NCBI GenBank assembly: GCA_916048095.2
Contig: OU696579.1
Span: 2,604,001 to 2,668,000 of the forward strand
DNA length: 64,000 nt
From: Sacculina carcini
Lineage: Eukaryota > Arthropoda > Thecostraca > Sacculinidae
Reading direction: 5' to 3'
Positions 85 to 60,281 of the stretch are shown piece after piece. The notes beneath the pieces were generated by a model, which did no database searches, was not told the origin of the DNA, and saw only the letters and a program-made list of their open reading frames with translations. A program made the translations under genes and the position numbers. How positions within the stretch are numbered: the stretch's first letter is position 1; the number at the start of each line of letters is the position of its first letter.

Positions 85-3000
85 CTGTCCTTCTTTTTGA
101 CCATGTGGGCGCGCAGCCAAAACTCCTCGCGTGACGCCTGCTGCGCGAGCCTGGCAGTGTTGGGCACCTCCACTGTACCACGACTGACACTCATCTAACC
201 AACAGCAACAACAAGCCATAACTGCCAGGCCTCAACAAGTCGTCAAACCAAGATGGCGGCTCATACAGTGAGATACACAATTGAAGCAAACATTCTATCA
301 AAACGAATTGGCCCGCTGATTGTGTGTGTTGCTAAACGAGCTGATGTTTCATAGCGGAGTATTTTTGGACCAATTGTCGTCTGATGTTACGTCACATGCG
401 AAGCGCAGGCAAATGTACTGCAATGATATACGCAATACCTTGATGCAAACGCAAATACTGCAAATATAAGTACTAGAAATATTTCACAAAAATATGCAAA
501 ATGTATCCAAATAAAATACCTACAAGAAAATTAAACATTCTTCCTAAAAATAAAATATATATACAGAAACTAATATATAAAATATACAGGATACTCAAGT
601 ACTAACATTTCACCAATATTTTAATTGTTTTGGCATTTTCGCGCAAACACCCCAGTTTGATGTGATTGTTGTTATTATTGTACCTTGGCGGCGCCGTCAT
701 CAACGCCAGAGTCGCGCTCATCACACATGATGTCATCACCGGCCGCGCCATCATCAGTGTCTTGCTCGTCATCATTTGTCTCATTATCTCGGCCGCTGTC
801 AACCTGCTGTCCACTGTCGCTGGACATCACCTGGTCGTCATCACGCTCATCATCACGCTCATCATCGCAATCAGTAGCATCCTCGCCATCACTGGTCGCG
901 CAAGTCGGGTTCGTCACAGACTCGCCACATTCCCCCGACAATTCGTCTTCACAACACACACAAGTATGGAGGGAATTAAACTACGATAGCAACAATTATA
1001 CAACATGCAAATTTGGCATGAAATGTACTTGATTACTTGATTCGGGCCTAACTTTCAATGATCACATTTCCCACGTTATAAAAGTTTGTCACCTCCAATT
1101 GAGGAATTTGTACACTATTCGAAAATATCTAAATCAGGAATCATTGACAATACTTGTTCATGGTCTTGTTGTTTCCCATATTGATTATTGTAATGCTCTC
1201 CTTGTTAGGCTTCCGTGCTATCAATTGCAAAGATTACAATCGATCCTAAACCGTTGCGCTCGTTTAATTTTTCATCTACCGGCACATAAACCCACCTCGC
1301 AATATTTAAGGCAGCTTCACTGGCTTTCTATAGTCGAGAGGATTGAATTCAAGGTGTGTCTACTAGTGTTCAAGGCCTTGTTATATGGTAAACCGCAAGA
1401 TATCTGTGATATGCTCTCTAACAGAGACATTGTTGATGAAACTGTACGTGTAAGGACTAGATCGGTTTCGCGGGCCAGGCAGCTAGATGAGTCTCGTTCT
1501 GTCAATGATGCATTGGCTCTTTCTGCCCGTTCTTGCCGCTATGTGGCGCCGATATATTTTAATAAGCCCCCTCTCGGTGTGAGGAGCTCAACCAGTGTTG
1601 AGTCGTTCAAAAAAGCGTTGAAGACTTACCTGCCCTTAAGCGCACTTATGGTAATTAGCTTGTTTTATCGTGATTCGTGTGCTATCGTGTGTGAATTATG
1701 TAAATAGCGCCACTGAGAGGCTGGTTTCTGTAGCGGCGCTTTATAAATAAATGTTGCTCTTGCAGTGTTTGAATAAAAAATATAAAAACAAACTGTTAAG
1801 ATGTATGTGTAAAGACAAATTTGAAATGCCACCACACACGTAATCATCTATATATAGCCTTGGCGATGAAAACACAGTTTCATATTTGCCATATATATCG
1901 AAGCATAATCGCAATTACAAATTAGCAATTATCAATTTAACTGAAACTTTTCTGCAGCAGTTTTATACAACCAAAATGTGAATACTCATTTTGTCATCGA
2001 CCCATCATTTCTACATGCTCTTCAAGACTTTAACAAGTGTTTGTCTATTTGTGTGTGTGTGTGTGTGTGTGGAGAGGGGGTACTGACTGAGCAATTTCAG
2101 CTTGTCGGGGGGCACGTACTCGCCCCATTCAACCTGTTCCTGCTTGAATGGCGACAAATGCGGCGGAAGTTCAACGCCGGGAAAGTACAGTTGTACAGGA
2201 CGCAGCTGACCGGCGTTCAACGAGTCAAACAGCCATTGAGGCTGCACGTAGTACCTGCCACAGCACAACACACAAGAATGAGCTGAAACGAACATGAAAA
2301 ACAATGTGAAAAATAACGAAATTCGGGAAATGGAATTGACACAACACATTCATACATACATATATGGACAGAATTAAGGAATTGGCGAAAATGAAAAACA
2401 ACAGCCAACACACATACGTACACACATACACCGCACAATCATGCACAAACACCAATACGGGAACAAAAAGGAGGCAATGTACTTTGGGGAGTTTTTATCT
2501 CGAAATAAACAAAGAGAAACAAATAGAAACGAGCCAATTTATGGTATAGAACAGTAAGAACCCAAATCACACAACTAATACAGTAGCAACTATGAGCGTT
2601 GCACCTTACATTACTAGTAGACAAACACACAAACACACACAGTCGTGTTGTGACAGTGTTGAAGATCGCAGCGTTCACTTTATTCACGTTTGTTCAGCAA
2701 ATTTAGAGTCACATGAAGACCAATGAGTTTCAAATATATGTATAAAAAAATAAATGCGGAGAATATACAAACATTTGTCAAAAAAATTGAATCCATCGAC
2801 TGGAATGGCATATTCTCCATAAATAAAGTTATTGAGTTATTTTAAACATTCTATGAACAATTAGTCAATGAATTCAACACGCACTTCCCTGGTAAGAAGA
2901 TCAAACACCACAGGAAGTAAGTTATCAGTCCACATATCACCAAATCCCTCAAAAAGAGCATAAATGAGAAAAATAGACTGAGAAGGCTATCCCGAAAATG

Positions 3001-6000
3001 GTCTATAACCTACAAAAACATCTGTGGCGTATCATATGTACATTTATCACTCTTTCTGTTTGTAGCTCATTTGCTCTTCTTCCAATTGTCAGTAACACTG
3101 TGTAGCCAACTGTACGTATGTGTGTCTGTATGTCTGGGAGTTGAATGTGTTTCAGTGTGAGGGTGTGTGCACCTGATTTGTATGCTTGTCTGTGTGACAG
3201 ACGGGAAATCGTTCGTTTGGTCATGTGAAGAGTGTATGTCTGTTGTGTTGTATGTATGGGTATGTTTGTTTGTGTGTGCGATTGTGTGTCATTATGGGTC
3301 ATGTGACCAAGCTTATATGAATCCTGAACGCGGTGATCGGTGATTCAGTTGGGTCAACTCGTGTGTCAGTTATCGTATCTGATCGCCGCATCTATATATC
3401 TCGCCGCTGCAATCGAACCGAAGTTTTCTTGTGTGGACCAGATAACCACACATCAATACATAAAATATAGAAATACACTTACTAACACATTGAGAGCCGC
3501 AAAAGTAAGTACTTTAAAGATAAACTCTTGGAAAGCAACAATGACCAAAAAAACAATGACAAATTTCAGGTTCCTTCATGGGGAGACAGGCAAATAAATT
3601 CAAAACATAGATTTGGACACACCAAACACAAAAATAGCCAATTGCTCCAATCCAATCTGCTCAATACCGTCCTCATTTCTTGAAACATAATTAATTTTAG
3701 CCAACGAACAATTTGTATTAAGACAAAACCGCTCGACTGAATTAGCAATTTTGAATTTTACATATGAAGTGTACAGAAATCTCGAAGGAAATTAATTGGT
3801 CGCAGGTATATTTATTGACCTCTCAAAAGCATTCGACACCATCGACCACAGCATACTTTTCCATAGACTTCAAAACATAGGAATAAGAGGAAACTGCCTA
3901 AAATTGATAAAAACGTCACCTGCAACAATCAGAAATCCTCGGAAGAGTCTGTCCAGAGGGGGGCCCTACAAGGTTCAATATTGGGACGTATATTATTTCT
4001 CATATACATCAATGATATTATTAACACCAGCTCTAACCTACATTTCACTATTTACGCTGACGATATTACCTTATTGATGAAACACAAAAATCCCGCAACT
4101 CTACATTCCTTACTTACATCAGAACTCAAGACAATCCATGACTGGACTACACTCAATGGAATACGCCAACACCACCAACACTAAATTTGGGAATCATTGT
4201 TGACGAACATTTCAACTGGAAATATCAGATAAACGCTGTTTGCACCAGGCTTTCCAGAATCACAGGAATTCTCTATCGCGTGAGACATAATCTGACAATG
4301 GATATCATGATCACCTTACACTACTCCCTCTTTTATCCTCACTTAACATACTGCATCACGGTGTGGGCCAGCACATGGCCGTCCTTCTTAAAATCTCTAT
4401 CCACAACACAAGACAAATTCATGAGATGCATCGCCTTCAGAAACAAAGACTCGACTCAGTACACGACATATACACAGACAAACATATCATGAAAGTCCAG
4501 TCTATTCACAAATTCTACTCAATACTACTTGTATACACAACAATAGAAACACACTTGTTCTTTAACTACATCACTCATGACAGAAACACAAGATCATAAT
4601 GTACCGACTTGGAGATTCCTCCTGCCAGAACTGAGCTATACAAGAACAGTATCTTCCACTCTGCCCCACCAGCATTTAACACGCTAAACAGACAACTAAA
4701 ATCACTATTGGCACAACGCAAATATCACCTCTTCAAAAAGACACTCACACTCTATTTGTTTAATAATGATGAATCCCAAAATGATGAAGCCCAATAAAGG
4801 TACGAACATGTTAGTGATTGTCTGAAACCAATTTTCAATGCTGCTTAATGTTTATGTTTACACATATTGTCATTGCATGTAAGCATCATGTTGTCAACGT
4901 GTTATAACATGTATTCCTCAACAACGAATTTGTTAAAACCATATTGTTAAAGGTTAAATGCCTAAGTGGCAGCTGCTACACGGGAAGAAGCCGAAGCTTA
5001 TGAACACACAGGTGTGTCCCGTGCAGCTCGCTGCCACCGCAGAACCGACCCTATCCACGCTATGACGCCACAAGGACGAAAAACGTATTAGAGAGGACCA
5101 CCTCCCCAGAATGCATGGCACAACACATGACTGATATCTGGTACCATCAATTTCTGCTGGGTTGACAGGGGCTGTTGGATTATAGAATTCGCCCAATGAA
5201 ATTCTGCTCCGCCGGGTTTCGAACCACGGACCGCTTGTTAGGCGGGTGTGCTAACACTACACCACGCAGTCGATATGCCCAAAAGAATGTGAATTGCCTG
5301 TATAAATGATGTATTGACCAATAAACGTATGGACGTATGAACACACACACACACAATGAAGCGTGTTGCGCCAACCTCGAAGTGTATTTGGCGGCAGTCA
5401 TCTTGCGATCGACCACCTGGTGCGTGATGGTTTGGTCGGTCTCCGCATAGGTGGCGCCAGGAGCACAGGTCGCGTCCCACGAGCATACGCCGCCCAGCGC
5501 GCGAATCAACAGTACACACGGCTCGCGAGGCACCTGCGTGAACAGAAGCGGCGCAAACAACGCGACATTCACTACCACACAGCTCAGTGGTGAAGCGACA
5601 CCCCGAAGGGCAATGGGTATTGTGCTAAACACAGCATACAAGGAGGTACAGAACACATGTTCACGCGAGAATTATGATAAATTATATCCATATGTAATAG
5701 ATTCAATTCAATTGATGTGTGTGTGTGTGTTCAACGTAAATTTTTTCCGTGGGACCTTTCGATTCGTGCGCGTGACTGAATCGTCCAACAACACAATTAT
5801 TCACAATTACAAGCCACATTGATATGACACAACACTAACAACTACACTCACCTCGCGCCCGATAAAGAAGCGCATGTTGTCAAACAGCGCGCACGTGCGA
5901 CGAACCAGCTCGCGCTGCTGCTGCAACTGTTGCAGCTGATCGCCCGAGGCCATCGACATGAGCGCCATCTGTCGTTCCTCCTCGTCATCATCGACAGCGT

Positions 6001-9000
6001 CATGGCTGGCGGCGGTGGACGTGGCTTGACGCAGTGGACAGTTGAGAGCGGCCACGCGCTCCTCCAACAGCTCATCGACCGATAAGCTGGCCGTCGTCGG
6101 CCGTTTGCTGTCACGAGCCCGCACCGTCTTCTTGCCGCCGTTCAGCTTATGATTACTGGCGGTGGTTTTGTCCTCTGTGGTGTCGGCATCTGCAAGCCAC
6201 ACAGAACACACGCACACACAGACACAGGCGAATAAGACATATACGATGCACAATGAGTAGATCCGAGCAAAAAAGCAAACAAATTATTCCAATCATGCTT
6301 CCTCCTAGCCTATTTCTATAATATTAAATATTATAATTATAGACATATTACTATACATTACTACATACAGAATAATTAACAATAAATATAAACTAAATAT
6401 GAATGAAAAAAGAAAATAATAAATATGAAAAAATAACTGAATAAATAACAGCCAGCAGTCAATTCCGCTCTTTCAGTAGCATGCTATTAACTTTGGCCTT
6501 GAATTTGTTCACATTGTTCTGCGAGAAAAAAACCTCCCTCAATGCGTTCCAAGTACCCACATTCGCCGGAAGGAAGCAACGTTGGAATTGCTTTTACGAC
6601 AACGAATTGGAGATTTACGGTATATTGCGCAATTTCTACACAATGTCTCAGCTGCGCAGACAGTATTATTTGCGACAATTACAATGCGGCATTCAACAAA
6701 CTGACACATGCATTTGGCGGCAGGCCGGGTTTATCGTAAATCCCTGAAAGCGCACTGGTTTTGGGCATTTATAACCCGGTGACATGAACACCATGTATAC
6801 CAAGAAAGACGACACGTACATGTACACAAGCAAACACGGAGCGACAGGTGAGAAACACACATACACATGCACAGAGCGTAATATCAAGCACATATTGGTT
6901 ACGCATGAAGCAAGCACGCACACAAGAAATCTCACTGTCAAGTACGAATGCACGCACAAATAAAGACTTGAGCAATTGAAACACGGAAACACACATACAA
7001 AGTGGGGCCAAGAAGTTTAAGCCCCAACAATTCCGAACATGAACATTTCGAGTGTAGCTCGTCATGTTTCGCCAAGCCCACACCGGACAATTGCTGACAC
7101 CGCCTCTCTTTCGTTAGTATGCTATTGGCTTGGGCTTTAAAATCGCCCAAATTTCAATATATTTCACATACCTCACAATATTGTGTGTATGTATGTATGT
7201 CTGCTTATGTGTATGTATGTGCACGCGTGTACACTGTACATTTTCTGATGTGCATGTGAATATGATTGTGTGAGCGCTTGTGTTTGAGTTGAAGTTTAAG
7301 AGACGATTTTGGGATAGTTTAGTGTAGTGACCTGCAGTAGTCAAGGCGAGATAAAACGAGAGACTGAACAAGTTTGATGGCTGAGTGCTGATGAAAAAAA
7401 GACGGATAGGGTAGAGAGAGCGAAGAATTAAGCGACAAGAACGAGCAATAATAATAGCATTAGAGGAAAGAGAAGAGAAGGAATAAAAAACAACACCAAT
7501 AATTTCAACTCTGGAAGAAGGAGGGAATAGAAGAAGTGGTGGGAAATAAGACGGGGTGAAGAGCAATATATTTCGATCTTGCCGATTAAAGAAGATGACG
7601 AGATGGTATCAGGATGGGTAAAAAAGTCAGGGAACATGAAGTTGAATGTCGTGTCGTGCGCATATATGAAAGTGGATACTATGGCGCCTAATAACCGATC
7701 CAGGGGAAGATGAAGAAGTTTAACAACAGAGGACCAAGTATAGAATATTGAAGGACACCAGGTACCAGAGCAGTGATTCCCAAACGGTGTGCCGCGGTAC
7801 CAAGATCTTTGAAGATCTTTTGATGATGACGATGATATGTGAGCCGCCAAAATTCTTTGAAGATGCCGCCAAAATTCAGGGGAAAAAATTGCATATTTGT
7901 ATTATAATACCATTTTTGTAATAGGATCAGTGTAAAGAATATTTTCAATTATGTTGCACCGATGCAAAATGTCGAAATGAAAAAATACATAATAAAAACG
8001 GAGATTATAAATATGTAAATCCTTATAAGGGTGTCGGGAATTATTGAAAGGCTTGCCAAGGACACCGCAAACTAGAAAAGTTTGGCATCCACTGCACTAG
8101 AGGATTTCTATTTCTACGAATTTCTACGGTTTTAGAGATAAGAACGCAGCAGAGAAAGGACAGTATCAGAAACATTTATGTGCGAAAGATCAACAAGAAT
8201 TTCGTGGTCTACCAGATCACACGTGGAACTCATAAACTCGTGAGATAAGAACAGTGAAGACATGAGAAATGAGATGCCTTCAGTAACACTAATGAGTAGG
8301 GTGACCTTTTGGTGCGCTAAAAATCCTAAAAATTCCGCCAAAAAGTTACACTTAAATTTTTGCAGAAAATTCACTAAAACCCGGAAAAATTAGTGAAAAT
8401 CACATGGTTATGAAAAACTAACTTGTGAGAAAAAAATGTACTTTTGACATTCAATAACTAATACAACGATACGTTTTGAGCATTTGCGGTTGTGCTAGGA
8501 TTGCATGCTTAATGAGCTACAACTGTCACCTCACTGGCGACAAGGGTGACATTTGGATGCGATAAAAATCGCAAATAGTTGCGCTAAAAAGATGAGCTCA
8601 ATGTTTCGCTAGAATATCACCAAAGTTAAATAATAGGGTAATAAAAGTTAAACACTGAAATCACTCCTTAACATTACACTTTGGGAGTTTCACGTTTTGT
8701 TTCTGCATTTTGAACATTTGCGGTTGCGTTAAGATTGTGTTTCACATGCTTGTCTAGTCTGTCGAATCTGTCGAACTGATGCCTGGTAGCGGCATTTAAA
8801 TCTACAATATAATTTGATAGACTCACTCGATGTAAATTTTCTTAAATGTTCCAAGGTCTAAACAGATTTTGCAGATAAAACATCATCTGATTATGCGGTG
8901 AATTTATTCAAGTACTGTCGATCCAACTAGTTGCTCTAAGATTGCTCGAAAATATAAAAATTAAAGTTTAATTGTATCTCACAAATGCACGTGTCTATAT

Positions 9001-10509
9001 CAGAGATTTATGTCTATATAATATTTTATATGTCTGTATTATGTGTATGGGAACATACATGCGCAGTATGTTTAGTACCACATACTGACACAATGTCTAG
9101 CACCACACATGGACACAATGTCAAGGACATTTTCACATGCAATGTTTTTATTTTAGATTTTTAGCTAGATTTTGTCCTGAACGCTCTAGTGAATACTTCA
9201 CGTGCTTTGCATATAAACTCAGATGTTGATTTCGCAACAGAAAGAAATAATAGGCGGATGAAGTAAATATTTATAGTGGGGCTAAATATTTTATAATGGC
9301 TTGTTAAAGTTTTTTTAGAAGATATATCATTTTTTTTGGAAAACATTGCATGTGGAGGACATTTTTAAAAACGTTTTTCAAGGAGGCTAAGCCCCCCTGC
9401 AAAATTCCTGGATCCGCCATTGTCTCCATTGATCGCTGTGTTAAATCTATCAGTCGTCGGTGGAAAGGACATGGTCTTGAATAAACGGTTATATCTTTTG
9501 GAATGTTAACACTACATATTTGAAAAATATATCATCTTGTAGAAGACAAAATTTCCAATCTGTGGATATAAAACAATGTCAATTCTGTTGAGCAGTTTTC
9601 CTCAAACCCGTGGCATAAAACCCCCAAAATGTGAAAAACTCGTTTGTGCACACACATACACACACACACAGACAGAATAACGTTTTTATTATTATCGGGT
9701 TTATATGTTTATATGCAACAAAACCTAGCCTATGACCTTCTTGCATCCATTTTACCCATAGGGACCAAGTTTCATCAAAATCGTTCCAGTGGTTTAGGAG
9801 GAGATAGGGTAAACAGACACAAATGACCTCAATGACCTTGAAAATGACCTCGGAGGTCAACAAAACCTAGCCTATGACCGTCTCGCATGCATCTTACCCC
9901 TAAGGGACCAAGTTTCATCAAAATCCGTCCAGTGGTTTAGGAGGAGATAGGGTACAAACAGACGTTTAGAAAATTTGCAATCAGTATAGGGCAAAAAATA
10001 CCATCAATTAGGCCCTTCGGGCCTATTTGGATAATTCCAGTAGATTTTTGCATAACATAGGTGATGTGTTTGATAAATTGTAGATGTTTGTCCAAATGCA
10101 CGCCTATAACTTTTACGGTCTCGCTTTCCACTATAATGCTGTCATGAAATGTGATCTCAATTTTCGGGAACGTCTTGAGTATTTTGTGCGAAATATTATC
10201 TAAGATCTATCTAAATAAATAATCTCAAAATCTCTCAATCTGTCAATCTCAATAATCTAAATATAATCTATATTATCTATATTATATTAGAAAGATCATG
10301 CTTATCAGCGAGGGAAATATACAATGACCCAAGAAAAACGATATCTAGTAATAATGTGTTATTAATCAATTGTAGATATCCACTATCAATTATTTCCTCC
10401 GCATTCACACACATCCTGCTGGGCGGATACCACCACACACCCACGAGCCGACAACCCAGTGTGTGTGTGTGTGACAGAGTATGAGAGCAGGTTATTGGAC
10501 AGAGCGAGC

Positions 10510-10541
<32 letters not shown>

Positions 10542-13500
10542 GAGCGAGAGAGCGAGAGAGAGAGAGAGCGAGAGAGAGAGAGAGCGAGAGAGAGAGAGAG
10601 AGCGAGAGAGAGAGAGAGAGAGAGACGGCCTGACCTTCATTGGTGCCAGTGAGCGCCAGTCGCGGCGGATAGTGCAGATTGAGAGTCTGATACAGTCGGA
10701 ACACGACGAAGCCGAGAAACGTCGTGTAAAACTCGCAAAATATCGTCATCACCTTGAGATCAACGTCTTGTGGTCTCTGCGAGCAAGCACACAAACACAC
10801 AGCAATAAAAGACAAATGTGGCCTCGTAACTGATCCATACTGACGACGCAAATACACAAAATCCAGATTCACAACACTCGAACACACGAACACACAATTT
10901 AAACAAGATACAGTTTTTACATATTGGTGTCAAAAAACGAAAAACAAAAATCATATTGATGGATTATAAACACTAAAATTGTTAATATTGGAGAAGAAAA
11001 AAGGGGAGAAATTGATTGTGACATTTACATGGGGAATACAAACTTCAACATGAAAGTATATTCAAAACAACATCATCAACAAGCGGACATAAATATTTCA
11101 TCCAGACCTGACTAAAATAAACGTAGAAAAGTAGATTTATCCTAATATTAATTATAGGTGCATTGATGAATGGAACAAAATACCGACCTACATCATGAAC
11201 GTTGTACGTTACAATACCAGAACGCTGCATAATTATAACAGATGCAAAACGACGAAGGCGTCCTATGTGACAGTCAACCTGACCAAACACAACTAAGAGC
11301 CATCAGTTCGCTCACTGACCGTGTAGACAAACTGGTGTGGCATGACCCAAGTCACCGTGTGACCCTGAATATCGGCCTGAAAATAGAAGCCTCGGATCGA
11401 AATGAACGCCTTGCGCAATGCTCGTGCCTCAATCACGTAGTGCATAAACTCAACAGTCAAACGCCGACAGTCGGACACGATTTCTGATACCGCCACACAC
11501 ACAAACACACACACACACACACACACATACACACACAAACACAAACACACACACGATGATTGCAAGTTTTCTGGTGTAGGTACAGCGCCTGATGAACTTC
11601 ATTCCAAGTGCCGACAGAAAGTGCTGCACTGCACTTAGGCACTGAAAGATCCAGCAATCGCAAGTTACGAGCAAACACTGACAAAACTGACATCGTATTA
11701 GTGGAGCACCCGAGTTGATGATCAAAAAGAGGCGAAAATCCGCCAGGGCCGACTCCTGTTGCAGTCAATGTTGGATTTAATGGTAGAAAATGTTGAATAA
11801 AAAAGTGAGCTTAGTCTGACTGTGTGCGCCATACACTTATAACCGGCACTGTAAATAGTATTTGTATAAAAGCGTTAAAACACCATACAGGTCGACAATA
11901 ACCTGCCTCGATATGATGTTGTGTGCCTCAATGTGGTTTTAGTGGATGGTAATAAACCTCTCAGTATAGAAAAATTAATATTAGAGAAAATAAACACACA
12001 CACACACACACAGGCGCGCGTGCGTCACCTGTGGATACTCGGAACACGGCAGGCATGATAGCGAACAGTGAGCAAAGAGTGAGTGCGTCGTCCATGTCGC
12101 CGAGTGCGTCAGAAAACGTCGGATATCTGACAGTGCAAACGACAAATGAAATAAACGTACTGAATTTACACCGGATAAATGGGAAAAAACAAAAAAATAA
12201 ATGTTCACACAAACTGGACAATAAAGTTAGCAAAGAAATGAAGAATACAAAAAGAGAAAAAAGCAAATTGGCTAGAAGAAACGGGAAACAAGTTCACCTT
12301 TCTTTGACAATATTATCGAGCTGGTACTTGGAGCGTCGCTCGGTGAGTCGCTTGGCACCGACGCGGTCACCTTTGCCCACGGCCTTCTGTATCTTCTTGT
12401 GCAACGCCTTGAACGCCACCGACGAAACACACACACACACAGATATGGTCGAACAGTGTATCAATATACAGCCGAATGTGACTTCAAAAGTATAGGCGAA
12501 GGCAGAGCGATACACTAGATTTAAATACAATATCACATGTTGGGCTAGAATTTTTACTGCTCTAAATTCATATAATGCTAATTTACACTTTTATAATTAT
12601 TAGCACAGTTATAAAACAATTACTTTCCGATAATAACCTAGAAAATCTAGGAATAAAAGTTAACATCCAATTGAAAGGTTTTACCCGAAAAAGTAACTGT
12701 AAGTAAAAAGTAAGTATTGCTAACTGTTTTGAAATTAAGCAATAGAGCAACAAAGGCGTAGCAAACAGCACTTACCGGCCTGTTGACTCGAAACCGAGAA
12801 TGATAAGCAAATTGAATTACAAGATGACAAGCGCAAGTGTACGCATACACACACACACACATACACACACACGCACACACACATGTAAAGACTGGCGACG
12901 AAACTTGCTCCGAAACTGATGGACAGGACCTATGAGGAACGACTCCAAGCTCTGAACCTAACTAGTCTGGAGGACAGAAGAAAGCGGGGAGACCTGATAA
13001 ACATATTTAAGTACATGAAAGAGATAACTACTCCAGTAATTACAGGTTTTTATAAGCAGATGAAAGGAAGAGGACACAAGTATAAATTAAGGAAACCCCG
13101 TTGCAAAAAAGATATAAAGAAGTACAGCTTCCCATACAGAGCTATAGATAGTTGGAATAAACTACCCAAGGATATTGTCGAAAGTGAAAAAATATCAGAG
13201 TTTAAAAGTAAAATTGATAGGTTGAGACAGGTCAGCTCGAGCTTAAGCTCAAATCCTGTAGAACAACTCGGTGAGTACATGCGCACACAGACGTTGCAAG
13301 GTCTTATGATGACCCCCGAAGGTAATAATTGGGGCCTCCATTATAAATGTGATAGAGCTGTGATTTGAGAAAACGCAGTTAGGAGCAGTTCCCTGATCTC
13401 CTGGGGACTTTTATGCGCTACTTTATAAATCTCAATTCCTACTTTACAAAATATCATGCGTATGGCAACGGGGCCCCTCAACACTCGGACCCATCCCCGG

Positions 13501-13803
13501 CGGGGGGTGGTTGCTACGATTCTGCATACGCAGACACACACACACACACACATATGCACAAACCTTGTTGTCCCACATCTTCCAGATCATCGGCTCGTGC
13601 AGCAGAAACTGAATGTCCTTCTTATAGTAGAGTGTTTTTATTTCAGTGGAGCCTTTCTGCGCGCGCGCTCGCTTGATGGGCTCGCGCGGATAAATGCCCT
13701 TCATGACGCACAGCCGTCGAAAATCTCGCAAGTTTATCTGCAGTTTTTTGAGCGCCTGCTTGCGGGTCAAGTACCACGTCGCCTCGCCGTGTGAGTACTT
13801 CAA

Positions 13804-13836
<33 letters not shown>

Positions 13837-15928
13837 ATGCAAAATGATCAACAGAAATACCGTACCAGCCCACTATCTTGCTATATTTTTATGGGCGAAT
13901 AAAGCGTGAGCCAGCCTCATGACACATCCTATTGTGTGCTCATCTACTGCGATAGCACCATAGACTCAAACAAGGTGTTAATGAACCAACTAGGGACAGG
14001 CTTACACCGCGAACATCTGACACCAGTTCAGCACCAAAGCAGCTGGTTACTCAACTTTTCGCGCAATTTGTTTCAACAAAAGAAGCGACTCACGCAGGTA
14101 GTTTTGAGGATTAGTTAAGCAAGCTTTTACTATGCTGAATGCTGAGGTAAATTGCATAATGTGACGAATTGACTGACCTATAACTGAGTTAATATATATA
14201 ATTGGCCTATAGAACCACTTCCGATTATATTTTGTTGTGATGTAATTGGAAACCACTTGCTTGTGAGCGCATGGTTTTGGCGTGCATATGTATACGGATA
14301 TATGTAAGCGTGAGTGAGTGTGTGTGTGTGTGTGCGGCTGGTCTGTCTTGTGTTCAAGTGTGTTTGTGTTAACCTTTGAGAAGGTCAAAGGCCGGTTGTG
14401 TAAGCGTGCGGCAGTTGACGTGTGGATTATATTGTGTGCAGTTCTGCAGGTGTGTGTGGTCGTGTAGGTGTGTGTTGAGTTGGGTTGTGTACAGTCGGGT
14501 GTATTCGTTACTGCGTCCTGAGTTAATCGTGTTCATCTTCATTCCCTTGTTTTGTATCTTTCTAACAATGTTTCATATTTTACTTTGTTATATGTAACTT
14601 TTATTCTTGTGTTTAGTAATCGTTTGTTTTGTACATTGTGTATTGCATGTTGTGCATTAGATATGGCATAGGATAGGATAGAATAGGTTAGGCAACGAGA
14701 AAGTAGTGGTCGCACGCTCACACACAGATAACACATACATTACCAGAATACGTTGGAATACAGAACACAGCATTCGTTGCACACACGTAGACACACACAC
14801 ATACACTGCAAGACATTAAGAGAAAGCAGGGCAGCACGTGCAAACGCATATATCACACACACCAGTGTGTAAGACTATGTGCGTGTTGCCGGGCGTGTTG
14901 CATTGTGGTGACCTTGCGGTCCGTAACTAATGAGGTCGTGCACAACTTGGAGCTGAATAATGTTGTAGGCGGCGCTAGCTAGCACTATACAAGCACAGTG
15001 TTTTCACCATTCGGGAGATAGGAATAGAAGATCAGCGGCAGTAGAGAGATGGGGAAGCAGCGGGAATAGATAGATTGAAGCGGCAGCGGATGGAATAGAG
15101 ATTTAGCAGCAGCAGTAGAGGAGATTCAGTAGAGAAGTGGAAAGGTTCAGAGGGAGAATGGAACGAAACAGAGTATAGCAACACCAGAGGATAGAACGGG
15201 AGAGCAGATAGGATAGAACACTGGATATAACGTTAGGACAAATATAGTTAGGAACTGCAACATTAGACGTAATATCACGACGAAATTGTGGACTCCGTGG
15301 TGCAGTTGTTAGCACACCCGCCTCACAAGCGGGAGGTCCGTGGTTCGAAACCCGGCGGAGCAGAATTTCATTGGGCGAATTCTACAATCCCACAGCCCCT
15401 GTCAACCCAGCAGTAAATGGTACCAGATATCAGTCATGAGTTGTGCCATGCATTCTGGGGAGGTGGCCCTCTCTAATACGTCTTACGTCCTTGTGGCGCC
15501 ATAGCGTGGAGAGGGTCGGTTCTGCGGTAGCAGCGAGCTGCACGGGGCACGCCTGTGTGTTCATAAGCTTCGGCTTCTTCCCGTGTAGCAGCTGCCACTT
15601 GAGCATTTAAAAAAAAATACATTGTTTCTTCAGCAATCAACTGTGTTTGGAATCGGCAATAAGAGTTATCGCGGCACACAACGTCAAGGGGCCTGCTCCA
15701 CTTGAACTATCACGACTGAAAACAACACTTACACTTTTCGTCACTGTCATTCATCGCAATGAATCGCTTGTGAGAAGCATTTGTACAATGGCAACGAGGG
15801 CGGTGAAACCACACTTGTCAATACCAAAAGTCACACCAAATAAACAACTACACCATAAATACTGAATATTAATCAAATGTCATTAATTACGTACTCACCT
15901 TCTTCAATCTTTTACCAGTGCCAGTCAT
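85..15928 (-). CDS. PES1: Pescadillo homolog, ribosome biogenesis factor (11 exons, 3' end beyond window)
   Basis: Pescadillo is the nucleolar PeBoW-complex subunit (with BOP1 and WDR12) needed for 27S/32S pre-rRNA processing and 60S maturation. Exons in transcript order: 15899-15928, 13564-13797, 12298-12419, 12029-12126, 11320-11483, 10635-10776, 5852-6189, 5376-5533, 2088-2254, 684-946, 85-194. All phases agree. Residues 1-263 are the Pescadillo N-terminal domain ([47 protein letters not shown]). Exon 7 is a polar linker. Exons 8-9 form the BRCT domain ([32 protein letters not shown]). Exon 10 is the acidic stretch, and exon 11 the basic tail start ([15 protein letters not shown]). The start codon at 15928 gives [10 protein letters not shown], joining the conserved [14 protein letters not shown]. 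The coding part seen is 1826 nt (608 codons), already longer than human PES1 (about 588 residues), and exon 11 ends at a good donor (GTTAGT), so more exons lie to the left. Exon 3 has no AG acceptor (see findings). Confidence 0.95.
195..683. other. PES1 intron 10, no recognisable content
   Basis: AT-rich intron sequence between PES1 exons 10 and 11. I see no gene, transposon or strong repeat in it. Confidence 0.5.
1038..1765 (+). mobile_element. CR1/L2-like LINE fragment, reverse transcriptase C-terminal region
   Basis: Lies in PES1 intron 9, opposite to the gene. The reading frame from about 1038 to 1707 shows the typical post-RT region: [61 protein letters not shown] and a terminal [10 protein letters not shown]. 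The frame is open over at least 202 codons, so the insertion is not very old, but endonuclease and catalytic RT motifs are missing (5' truncated). Confidence 0.8.
2052..2072 (+). repeat. (GT)n next to the PES1 exon 9 donor
   Basis: On the transcribed (minus) strand this reads (CA)n and begins about 15 nt after the donor GTCAGT at 2087-2082. It is one of the donor-side CA tracts discussed in the findings. Confidence 0.8.
2750..4810 (+). mobile_element. Degenerate LINE with EN-RT linker and RT domain
   Basis: In PES1 intron 8. The translated pieces run in order along the plus strand with frameshifts: a linker ([17 protein letters not shown] near 2950), then [20 protein letters not shown] (3805 on), [12 protein letters not shown] and YADDITLLM (3990-4080), [20 protein letters not shown] (4190) and a C-terminal tail to about 4800. 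The RT core box YADD is readable. About 3020-3420 does not translate as LINE and may be an insertion or unrelated DNA. The element is dead. Confidence 0.75.
4949..5272 (-). mobile_element. tRNA-derived SINE, copy A
   Basis: Reverse-oriented copy of the SINE seen at 15291 and 49574. On the minus strand it starts with a tRNA-Val-like head (A box TGGTGTAGTGTTAGCA, B box GGTTCGAAACC), then the shared body (AGAATTTCATTGGGCGAATT, CCTTGTGGCG, TGTTCATAAGCTTCGGCTTC) and ends near 4949 with GCATTTAACCTTTAAC. It sits between PES1 exons 8 and 9. Confidence 0.85.
6470..8375 (-). mobile_element. Degenerate CR1-like LINE remnants (interrupted by a hAT MITE)
   Basis: In PES1 intron 6, same orientation as the gene. 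Minus-strand fragments include [20 protein letters not shown] and VLSLLRSYL (8132-8260), matching the RT box normally read as DLSAAFDTVDHEILL, then [17 protein letters not shown] (about 7690-7765) and ATTFNFMF-type text. C-terminal tails occur at about 6480-6620 ([15 protein letters not shown]) and 7095-7140 ([14 protein letters not shown]). Many frameshifts are present. The two RT pieces are separated by the MITE at 7771-8094, so the MITE inserted later. Confidence 0.6.
7771..8094. mobile_element. hAT-like MITE nested in LINE
   Basis: Left end CAGTGATTCCCAAACGGTGT; the reverse complement of the right end is CAGTGGATGCCAAACTTTTC. Both are typical hAT termini. Flanking 8-mers TACCAGAG (7763-7770) and CACTAGAG (8095-8102) agree at 6 of 8 positions, as expected for an aged hAT target-site duplication. 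There is no transposase coding sequence, so it is non-autonomous. Confidence 0.75.
9362..9425. mobile_element. Relic hAT-type terminus
   Basis: The reverse complement of 9404-9425 reads CAATGGCGGATCCAGGAATT and is followed by a G-rich stretch, resembling the CAGTGGCGG-type ends of the MITEs at 38675 and 43351. No partner end was found, so this is a truncated relic. Confidence 0.45.
9715..9962. repeat. Tandem duplication of a LINE/SINE-type 3' tail
   Basis: Two direct copies (about 9717-9812 and 9861-9958) share ACCTAGCCTATGACC, GGGACCAAGTTTCATCAAAA and GGTTTAGGAGGAGATAGGG. The phrase TTTCATCAAAATCCGT followed by GTTTAGG and ACAGACG is common in 3' ends of RTE-like retroposons of invertebrates. 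It is preceded by (CA)n at 9650-9672. The family assignment is tentative. Confidence 0.6.
10010..10200 (-). mobile_element. Short LINE fragment
   Basis: Minus-strand reading gives [20 protein letters not shown] and YVMQKSTGI, the segment after the RT thumb usually read as KVLGVHLDSNLNFNDHI. It is in PES1 intron 6; no other domain is attached. Confidence 0.6.
10503..10624. repeat. (GA)n microsatellite with C interruptions
   Basis: About 120 bp of GA repeat broken by regular GCGA units. On the PES1 strand it is (CT)n starting about 10 nt after the exon 6 donor, and it is followed in the transcript by (CA)n at 10459-10474. Peptides read across it (RERERE, LSLSLS) are not genes. Confidence 0.9.
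11494..11556. repeat. (CA)n microsatellite at the PES1 exon 5 acceptor
   Basis: Interrupted CA repeat on the plus strand, so (TG)n on the transcribed strand, ending about 12 nt before the exon 5 acceptor AG at 11485-11484. It occupies the place of the polypyrimidine tract. Confidence 0.9.
12888..13290 (+). mobile_element. 3' end of a CA-tailed CR1-like LINE
   Basis: In PES1 intron 2, opposite to the gene. It encodes the C-terminal region [39 protein letters not shown] and [15 protein letters not shown], then ends in AATCCTGTAGAACAACTCGG followed by TGAGTACATGCGCACACAG. The same 3' end occurs on the minus-strand LINEs at 34538 and 39455, so these three are one family. The upstream side starts directly at a (CA)n run. 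Confidence 0.8.
13810..15290. other. PES1 intron 1, microsatellite-rich
   Basis: No coding sequence recognised. It holds (CA)n at 13803-13826 (the sense TG tract of the exon 2 acceptor) and (GT)n at 14314-14334 (sense CA), further CA runs at 14785-14860, and a purine-rich stretch at 15020-15200. Confidence 0.5.
15291..15620 (+). mobile_element. tRNA-derived SINE, copy B (best preserved)
   Basis: 15291-15363 folds as a tRNA-Val-like head: acceptor stem CTCCG/CGGAG, A box TGGTGCAGTTGTTAGCA, anticodon arm CCCGC-CTCACAA-GCGGG (anticodon CAC) and B box GGTTCGAAACC. A 250-bp body shared with copies A and C follows, ending in an A-rich tail (AAAAAAAAA near 15608). No functional tRNA is claimed, since the head is attached to the body in every copy. 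Confidence 0.87.
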
Positions 15929-16589
15929 ATTGACGAATGAATGGATCACTAGTAGATGAAAACCAGAGTACGGAAAAAACTTAACGCAAAAAATAGATGC
16001 TAAATTCTAAGCATAACAGCCTGAAAAGCCACTTAACAGAAGGAAAACGCAACCCAACTTCGGCACCCACGCTTATTGCACACTTGCGCGAAACGACTGC
16101 GCTGTGAATGAGATATTAATAAAACATTTGACATCATAATCAAAAGCAGCTAGTTGAATCGTTTCTCTTCATTTTCATCGACATGTTATTTTTTCAATGT
16201 AATCTATAATGCAAATTATTTCTATGAAGTCTTGATGATCGACCCACATCTGCTGCTATTGAATTTTGATCACACGCGATTGAGATGAAATTTTGTTCGA
16301 TGTAGTTAGATCGGTTTTTGTATTGTGTTTTGCTTGCTGGAACTTCATGGTATGCAAGCAATCAATCAAATATATCTTAAGCGGTCACTAAATTATTTTC
16401 GAATTTATATGATTTAACCAAAATACCGGTTGTACTTTGACAAAGTGACATATTATCTAGGATGAAACTGTCGTGTCTCATTCATTCGTACCTCATTCAC
16501 AGCAAGTATTGCTTTTTGATTTTCTTTGTGATTGCTTCTTGAAGATGTGATGAGGCGAGGACGTTCAGCGGCGCTCAGTTGATTAGCTC
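15929..16589. promoter_or_regulatory. Shared head-to-head intergenic region between PES1 and NALCN
   Basis: The PES1 start codon (minus strand, 15928) and the NALCN start codon (plus strand, 16590) face away from each other with 661 bp between. It should hold both 5' UTRs and promoters. I see no clear TATA box and no open reading frame of note; the composition is moderately AT-rich. An upstream non-coding NALCN exon cannot be excluded. That it acts as a bidirectional promoter is inferred from the layout only. Confidence 0.5.

Positions 16590-60281
<43,692 letters not shown>

Follow-up and report, generated by a model that had tools for sequence, protein, structure and literature searches.

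TG-rich tracts before the acceptors of a NALCN-like gene and other genes, with weaker CA tracts at donors and little sign of general pairing between them

The introns of the window, by which we mean the whole 64,000-base stretch analysed here (positions 2,604,001-2,668,000 of contig C11, in an assembly of 264 Mb in 43 contigs), raise the question of how a 3' splice site is marked when the bases before it are repeats of TG. A preliminary description had read these introns as carrying (CA)n after the donor and (TG)n before the acceptor, two tracts that would pair in the pre-mRNA and bring the splice sites together. We find that the TG half of this pattern is real, that the CA half is weaker and that pairing as a general device is improbable.

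Junctions were assigned in a NALCN-like gene and in PES1 (Table 1). The joined NALCN exons matched human NALCN by phmmer over residues 1-670 of 684 in a first part and 33-855 of 873 in a second, and 25 of the 27 junctions lay in gapless alignment as read by eye from printed alignments; the other two are 32946/33245, with a one-residue gap nearby, and 52453/53254, with five extra residues. PES1 matched the human Pescadillo chain in two aligned stretches, with all five junctions used gapless on the same by-eye reading. The window set comprised 32 introns whose two ends could both be assigned, 27 of them from NALCN and five from PES1, after prior exclusion of the NALCN stretch 42649-44653 between exons, everything 3' of 58934 and the PES1 introns with an unclear end. 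An intron end was scored as carrying a run when a TG or CA run of at least 6 nt lay in its terminal 60 nt. NALCN intron 54757-57258 has a GC donor instead of GT, a choice made because it renders the protein alignment gapless. The 13.2-kb NALCN intron 18621-31821 contains a GC-rich stretch (about 54% at 20001-26000). It also holds open frames that by eye resemble mobile-element proteins, one of 762 aa (23817-26105) being reverse-transcriptase-like and others, on the minus strand within 20050-20840, integrase-like. Intron 57486-58781 includes some 70 tandem copies of a 17-bp unit (57506-58649).

TG runs were present in the last 60 nt of 27/32 introns (23/27 in NALCN and 4/5 in PES1) and CA runs in none. 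The trend described earlier for about 26 of 32 NALCN introns is thereby confirmed at the count given here, and the same pattern was seen in PES1, where six of the seven acceptors examined carried TG rather than at least seven as had been claimed. Introns without a TG run were NALCN 16694-16962, 46275-47019, 51819-52256 and 54757-57258 and PES1 12298-12126; three acceptors with an unclear donor (NALCN 44653, PES1 11483 and PES1 6189) also had one. Windows of 60 nt from the interiors of these introns (n=4484) contained TG in 9.7% and CA in 4.0% of cases, and interior CAG decoys were preceded by a TG run in 67/503 cases (Fisher p=1e-17 against the true acceptors). For the 24 introns of at least 260 nt, random placement gave a mean of 4.8 and a maximum of 11 with TG, where 20 were observed. 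Intron by intron, TG coverage favoured the acceptor end in 26 and the donor end in three (p=1.5e-5). The equal frequency of CA and TG at both ends that the preliminary description had named as counting against its proposal was not seen. Coverage by TG runs peaked at -16 to -30, at 0.448 in the window and 0.128 in the 81 acceptors of other genes treated below, and beyond -75 fell to 0.08-0.12 and 0.01-0.05, respectively.

Table 1. Genes of the window and the repeat tracts beside their splice sites
Feature	Position	Strand	Basis
NALCN-like sodium leak channel gene, 29 exons assigned	16593..58934	+	phmmer match, human NALCN structure
PES1 (Pescadillo) gene, assigned part	2040..13770	-	phmmer match, Pescadillo homolog 8fkp
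TG tract before acceptor of exon 17470	17423..17459	+	sequence, run count
TG tract before acceptor of exon 18493	18426..18489	+	sequence, run count
GT tract before acceptor of exon 33245	33196..33226	+	sequence, run count
TG tract before acceptor of exon 41922	41818..41902	+	sequence, run count
TG tract before acceptor of exon 42263	42192..42234	+	sequence, run count
GT tract before acceptor of exon 44653	44596..44633	+	sequence, run count
TG tract before acceptor of exon 45744	45655..45737	+	sequence, run count
TG-rich tract upstream of exon 47674, taking up most of a 159-nt intron	47515..47660	+	sequence, run count
TG-rich tract before acceptor of exon 51654	51620..51647	+	sequence, run count
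TG tract, about 299 copies, its end 4 nt from exon 53254	52653..53249	+	sequence, run count
CA on the plus strand, TG in PES1 sense, before PES1 exon 11483	11494..11554	-	sequence, run count
(CA)n from intron position 22 after exon ending 32445	32467..32531	+	sequence
CA-rich tract after donor of exon ending 34359	34374..34424	+	sequence
CA-rich tract after donor of exon ending 45864	45868..45893	+	sequence
(AC)16 from intron position 8 after exon ending 47794	47802..47833	+	sequence
CA-rich tract after provisional donor 42649	42655..42692	+	sequence

The absence of a polypyrimidine tract, also part of the original account, was borne out: the longest pyrimidine run at -42 to -3 was between 1 and 6 nt across the 32 introns, and base composition at -4 to -33 was 42.5% T, 36.1% G, 11.7% C and 9.7% A. 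TC runs occurred in the last 60 nt of 1/32 window introns and 0/81 others, as compared with 2.6% of interior windows, so a pyrimidine microsatellite is not enriched at acceptors. When the 100 nt upstream of each of 113 acceptors (32 in the window and 81 elsewhere) were searched for the branch-site motif CTRAY, no peak and no consensus emerged.

Evidence for the donor tract is of a lesser order. CA runs were found in the first 60 nt of 7/32 introns and TG runs in 6/32, so that CA, although above its interior rate, is hardly commoner there than TG. The long or clustered cases follow 32445, 34359, 45864 and 47794, single 6-nt runs follow 17804, 32946 and 33967, and CA tracts also follow the provisional donors 42649 (NALCN) and 2088 (PES1). 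Per-intron CA coverage was higher at the donor end in seven and at the acceptor end in three (p=0.34). All seven runs were in NALCN and none in the five PES1 introns. The link to transcript sense holds to the extent that PES1, on the opposite strand, shows the TG part.

We examined whether these features extend beyond the window using a further 263.8 kb of the same genome, consisting of the surroundings of ion-channel exons (L001-L020), a U2AF2 locus (L021), TDP-43 loci (L022-L023) and one fixed coordinate on each of four contigs (L024-L027). Exons were called by a simple gene finder with an acceptor model confined to -3..+1 and a strand-symmetric non-coding model, genes and exons below score limits were dropped, and L024 yielded none. 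A confounder is that 30 exon starts were placed on a drop list and that three exons of low score were added by hand while their flanks could be seen, so that bias is possible in these counts; a filter against acceptors lying inside exons removed 1/81 and was of little use. In these gene-finder models TG runs preceded 21/81 acceptors and CA runs 4/81 (p=0.0003), CA runs followed 13/76 donors and TG runs 7/76 (p=0.23), and interior windows contained TG in 12.2% and CA in 7.4%. No TG run was present at 60/81 acceptors, or at 58/72 when the TDP-43 loci were omitted. The proportion with TG varied among channel groups (0/6, 6/16, 4/19, 1/11 and 0/7), TDP-43 loci (3/3, 1/3 and 3/3) and the remaining groups (1/2, 1/2, 1/5 and 0/4); one TDP-43 acceptor is probably misplaced by about 24 nt, the likelier site lying directly after the TG tract. 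For the 58 introns with both ends, the per-intron comparison gave 14 against 6 for TG (p=0.12) and 11 against 5 for CA (p=0.21).

Base composition at 80 of the 81 acceptors, taken as -4..-33 minus -100..-160, showed gains of 6.8 points for G (CI 3.9 to 9.7) and 5.2 for T and losses of 3.1 for C (CI -5.3 to -0.8) and 9.0 for A, with only a weak T excess where no TG run was present. The trend in other genes is thus a milder one, of which NALCN represents the extreme. Pooling both sets gave TG at 48/113 and CA at 4/113 acceptors, TG at 13/108 and CA at 20/108 donors (p=0.0004 for CA at donors versus acceptors), and interior rates of 5.8% for CA and 11.0% for TG. Among the three TDP-43 paralogs, intron 2 could not be aligned with dust on and yet has a TG tract near the acceptor in all three, and intron 1 has one in 2/3. 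Introner-like copies were considered as a source of the tracts and rejected: intron-versus-intron BLAST produced 121 hits besides identity, some within one intron, and the 39 inspected looked like dispersed repeats in long introns instead of shared intron ends. Elsewhere in the genome we encountered tandem protein-kinase domain arrays in single open frames of about 1500-2900 aa, many copies scoring equally among the 130 of 714 candidates scored, at C20:3.26-3.46 Mb, C24:7.69-7.78 Mb, C31:15-87 kb, C15:7.16-7.31 Mb and other loci.

Pattern counts across the whole genome give a mixed picture of polarity. These were made on one strand, with the pattern read backwards as control, and include repeat families and tandem copies throughout; because overlapping starts are counted inside long repeats, the non-redundant side was used. 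Donor-like AGGTRAG was followed within 25 nt by (CA)7 299 times (reversed control 121) and by (TG)7 97 times (reversed control 210). At acceptors, (TG)7 followed by CAGGT within 12 nt occurred 1276 times (control 278), a count made for the TG tract only, and with the tract end fixed the GT tract preceded CAGGT 879+794=1673 times against 516 in the control (3.2-fold) and the AC tract 233+228=461 times against 269 (1.7-fold); base rates in the sample were 686 per Mb for CAGGT and 749 for TGGAC. For TYCAGGT, TG (118, control 54) and CA (67, control 33) both stood at about twice the control, indicating no polarity in that subset. Polarity in these genome-wide counts is upheld by the donor-like sites and by the CAGGT acceptor comparison but not by TYCAGGT.

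The acceptor tract has a defined position and a sense polarity, is enriched in U and G and depleted of C, and is present in several genes; that it is functional and read by proteins is what we infer. The reading that we favour, at slightly better than an even chance, is that a U/G-rich tract, with the (UG)n microsatellite as its extreme form, would stand in place of the polypyrimidine tract at about -5 to -40 of the acceptor and be read as single-stranded RNA by the proteins that mark the 3' splice site. Donor CA would be a separate and weaker feature, either read by another protein or merely avoiding extra GT sites. Like the canonical polypyrimidine tract read by U2AF2, it is rich in U and sits immediately before the acceptor AG; unlike it, G takes the place of C (36% and 12% in the window), so that the region is not C+U rich and G poor, and no pyrimidine run exceeds 6 nt in window introns. 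Against a protein-read tract stand the majority of outside acceptors that lack TG, the lack of polarity for TYCAGGT, the non-significant tests in the 58 other introns, the repressive action of TDP-43 near mammalian splice sites and the retention of most U2AF2 contact residues (both treated below).

Candidate readers may be found in the genome. Two divergently placed U2AF2 genes (C26:1031601-1037400), which could read U at every second base or have a changed RRM2, each align to human U2AF65, are intronless over the matched part and are open across nearly the whole protein. The copies share 128/192 residues in RRM1-RRM2 and 120/125 downstream, with 4 mismatches in 354 nt of the 3' part; near-identical 3' parts beside diverged RNA-binding halves suggest recent conversion of the former. 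Among the residues named in an excerpt of PMC4786784, both copies keep Q147, N155, N196, K225, R227, V254, D256, K260, F304, K329 and G338. Both have R for K340 and E for D272, and T252 and K292 differ in one copy each. At residue 268 N is replaced by G or P and at 289 N is replaced by H in both copies, two positions that we take to touch bases and that are absent from that list. Since most of the listed contact residues are kept, a changed base preference is a candidate only. UG binders such as TDP-43 or CELF may also serve: three TDP-43 genes were recognized by the N-terminal domain, two of them head to head, and one copy, judged by eye, presumably differs at the RRM1 aromatic positions. RRM2 of one copy aligns to 4bs2. 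UG-binding proteins defining the acceptor, the alternative offered in the preliminary description, would fit the sequence evidence better than pairing of CA with TG.

That pairing, in which donor CA would bind acceptor TG, loop the intron and replace U2AF2 as in zebrafish, is improbable as a general mechanism. AC/GT repeats were reportedly noted at Fugu intron ends by Yeo et al. in 2004. Zebrafish provides the precedent for U2AF2 replacement by such repeats at intron ends (Lin et al., in an excerpt of PMC9198270), and the present introns resemble the fish ones in having AC after donors (commoner there than at acceptors in the pooled counts), GT before acceptors, a weak pyrimidine tract and a transcript-sense polarity; a few, namely 47794-51285, 45864-46144, 34359-38004 and 32445-32858, have both tracts. 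They differ in that the acceptor tract is far commoner than the donor tract, that there is no excess of both tracts in one intron and that pairing across exons is equally good. Among 81 introns scored over 60-nt ends, TG was present in 9/16 with donor CA and in 26/65 others (Fisher p=0.27), which leaves 26/35 TG-acceptor introns without donor CA, and over 100-nt ends of 76 introns there was no co-occurrence beyond chance (p=0.79). (CA)5 and (TG)5 together in 100-nt ends were found in 4/80 introns where about 2.1 were expected (3 versus 1.93 in 29 and 1 versus 0.16 in 51), these being few cases.

Calculated energies gave pairing no support either. Duplexes of an intron's own ends were no better than those of swapped ends (permutation p=0.49, 80 introns; p=0.84 for the 29 of the window), and the donor end scored -24.4 with the acceptor end as compared with -22.0 with a random interior piece (p=0.14, 51 introns). 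In NALCN the acceptor tract paired over the intervening exon with the first part of the following intron at a mean of -29.7 kcal/mol versus -25.9 with its own donor end, and more strongly in 15/25 cases (p=0.84). The TG-rich and (AC)16 tracts that flank one 121-nt exon (47674-47794) gave -97.9 across the exon and -5.6 within the intron; pairing of this kind would be expected to favour skipping or circles. Across the genome, overlapping matches at a spacing of 90-120 numbered 16849 for CA..TG and 19050 for TG..CA, with no excess of the former, a comparison confounded because a short exon between TG and CA gives TG..CA at the same spacing. On modelled energies, pairing could still serve single introns, such as 45864-46144 (-47) and, in the L004-L008 group, one of 191 nt (-72).

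A more serious competitor, which we judge possible and yet clearly less probable than a protein-read tract, is slippage combined with filtering, whereby U/G-rich seeds at acceptors would expand to (TG)n with no dedicated reader. TG would be tolerated at acceptors, as it keeps the U's and creates no new AG, and CA would be purged; near donors TG would be purged as a source of extra GT sites and CA left. The great abundance of both repeats in the genome, evident from the pair matches above, is consistent with this, as is the dependence of TG frequency on the gene, from NALCN to channel groups with none. Filtering alone only removes, however, and TG at 42% of pooled acceptors exceeds the interior sum of TG and CA (about 17%), so that expansion or selection must favour TG at that place. 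The recurrence of the tract at a matching position in the otherwise unalignable second introns of the three TDP-43 paralogs also tells against slippage, though a shared seed could explain it. It is most unlikely that the pattern is an artefact of choosing acceptors because a TG tract precedes them: exon ends outside the window are gene-finder calls with some curation by eye, but the acceptor and non-coding models of that program would hardly prefer such tracts, and for NALCN and PES1 the gapless junctions largely refute it. Folding of UG tracts as pUG quadruplexes acting in splicing or silencing is scarcely more than conceivable; long tracts do exist, such as the one of about 299 copies, yet the fold prefers 12 G (excerpt of PMC12962679) and an unbroken tract of at least 23 nt occurs in the last 100 nt of only 4/27 NALCN introns.

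A bolder form of the protein-read tract, which we regard as unlikely, is that the U/G tract has replaced the polypyrimidine tract as the general 3' splice-site signal of this lineage with co-evolved readers, namely the two U2AF2 genes sharing RRM2 changes at 268 and 289 and the three TDP-43 genes, so that a sequence repressing exons in mammals would have turned into one defining constitutive exons. Cryptic exons repressed by TDP-43 carry (UG)n (excerpts of PMC5446763 and PMC13343711), and TDP-43 bound near mammalian splice sites represses them (PMC13343711, in the same excerpt). The present introns likewise have (UG)n beside splice sites; unlike those cryptic exons, the exons here are conserved and coding, encoding NALCN and PES1 residues. 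In Fritillaria borealis duplication of U2AF1/U2AF2 is linked to non-canonical 3' ends (excerpt of PMC13326754), which recalls the two U2AF2 genes and unusual 3' splice sites of this genome, but here AG is kept and duplication and tract merely coexist. Titles and abstract openings from a partial coverage of the literature contained no animal example of UG tracts serving generally as the tract of the 3' splice site.

Should the UG tract prove functional, it would show that the base preference of a core splicing signal can change from C to G within animals, and this genome would offer a natural system for studying how U2AF2 and UG binders such as TDP-43 share recognition of the 3' splice site. 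Gene finders trained on pyrimidine tracts would in that case misplace acceptors in this genome. If the pattern instead reflects merely slippage and filtering, it would clearly illustrate how splicing can set the orientation of microsatellites.
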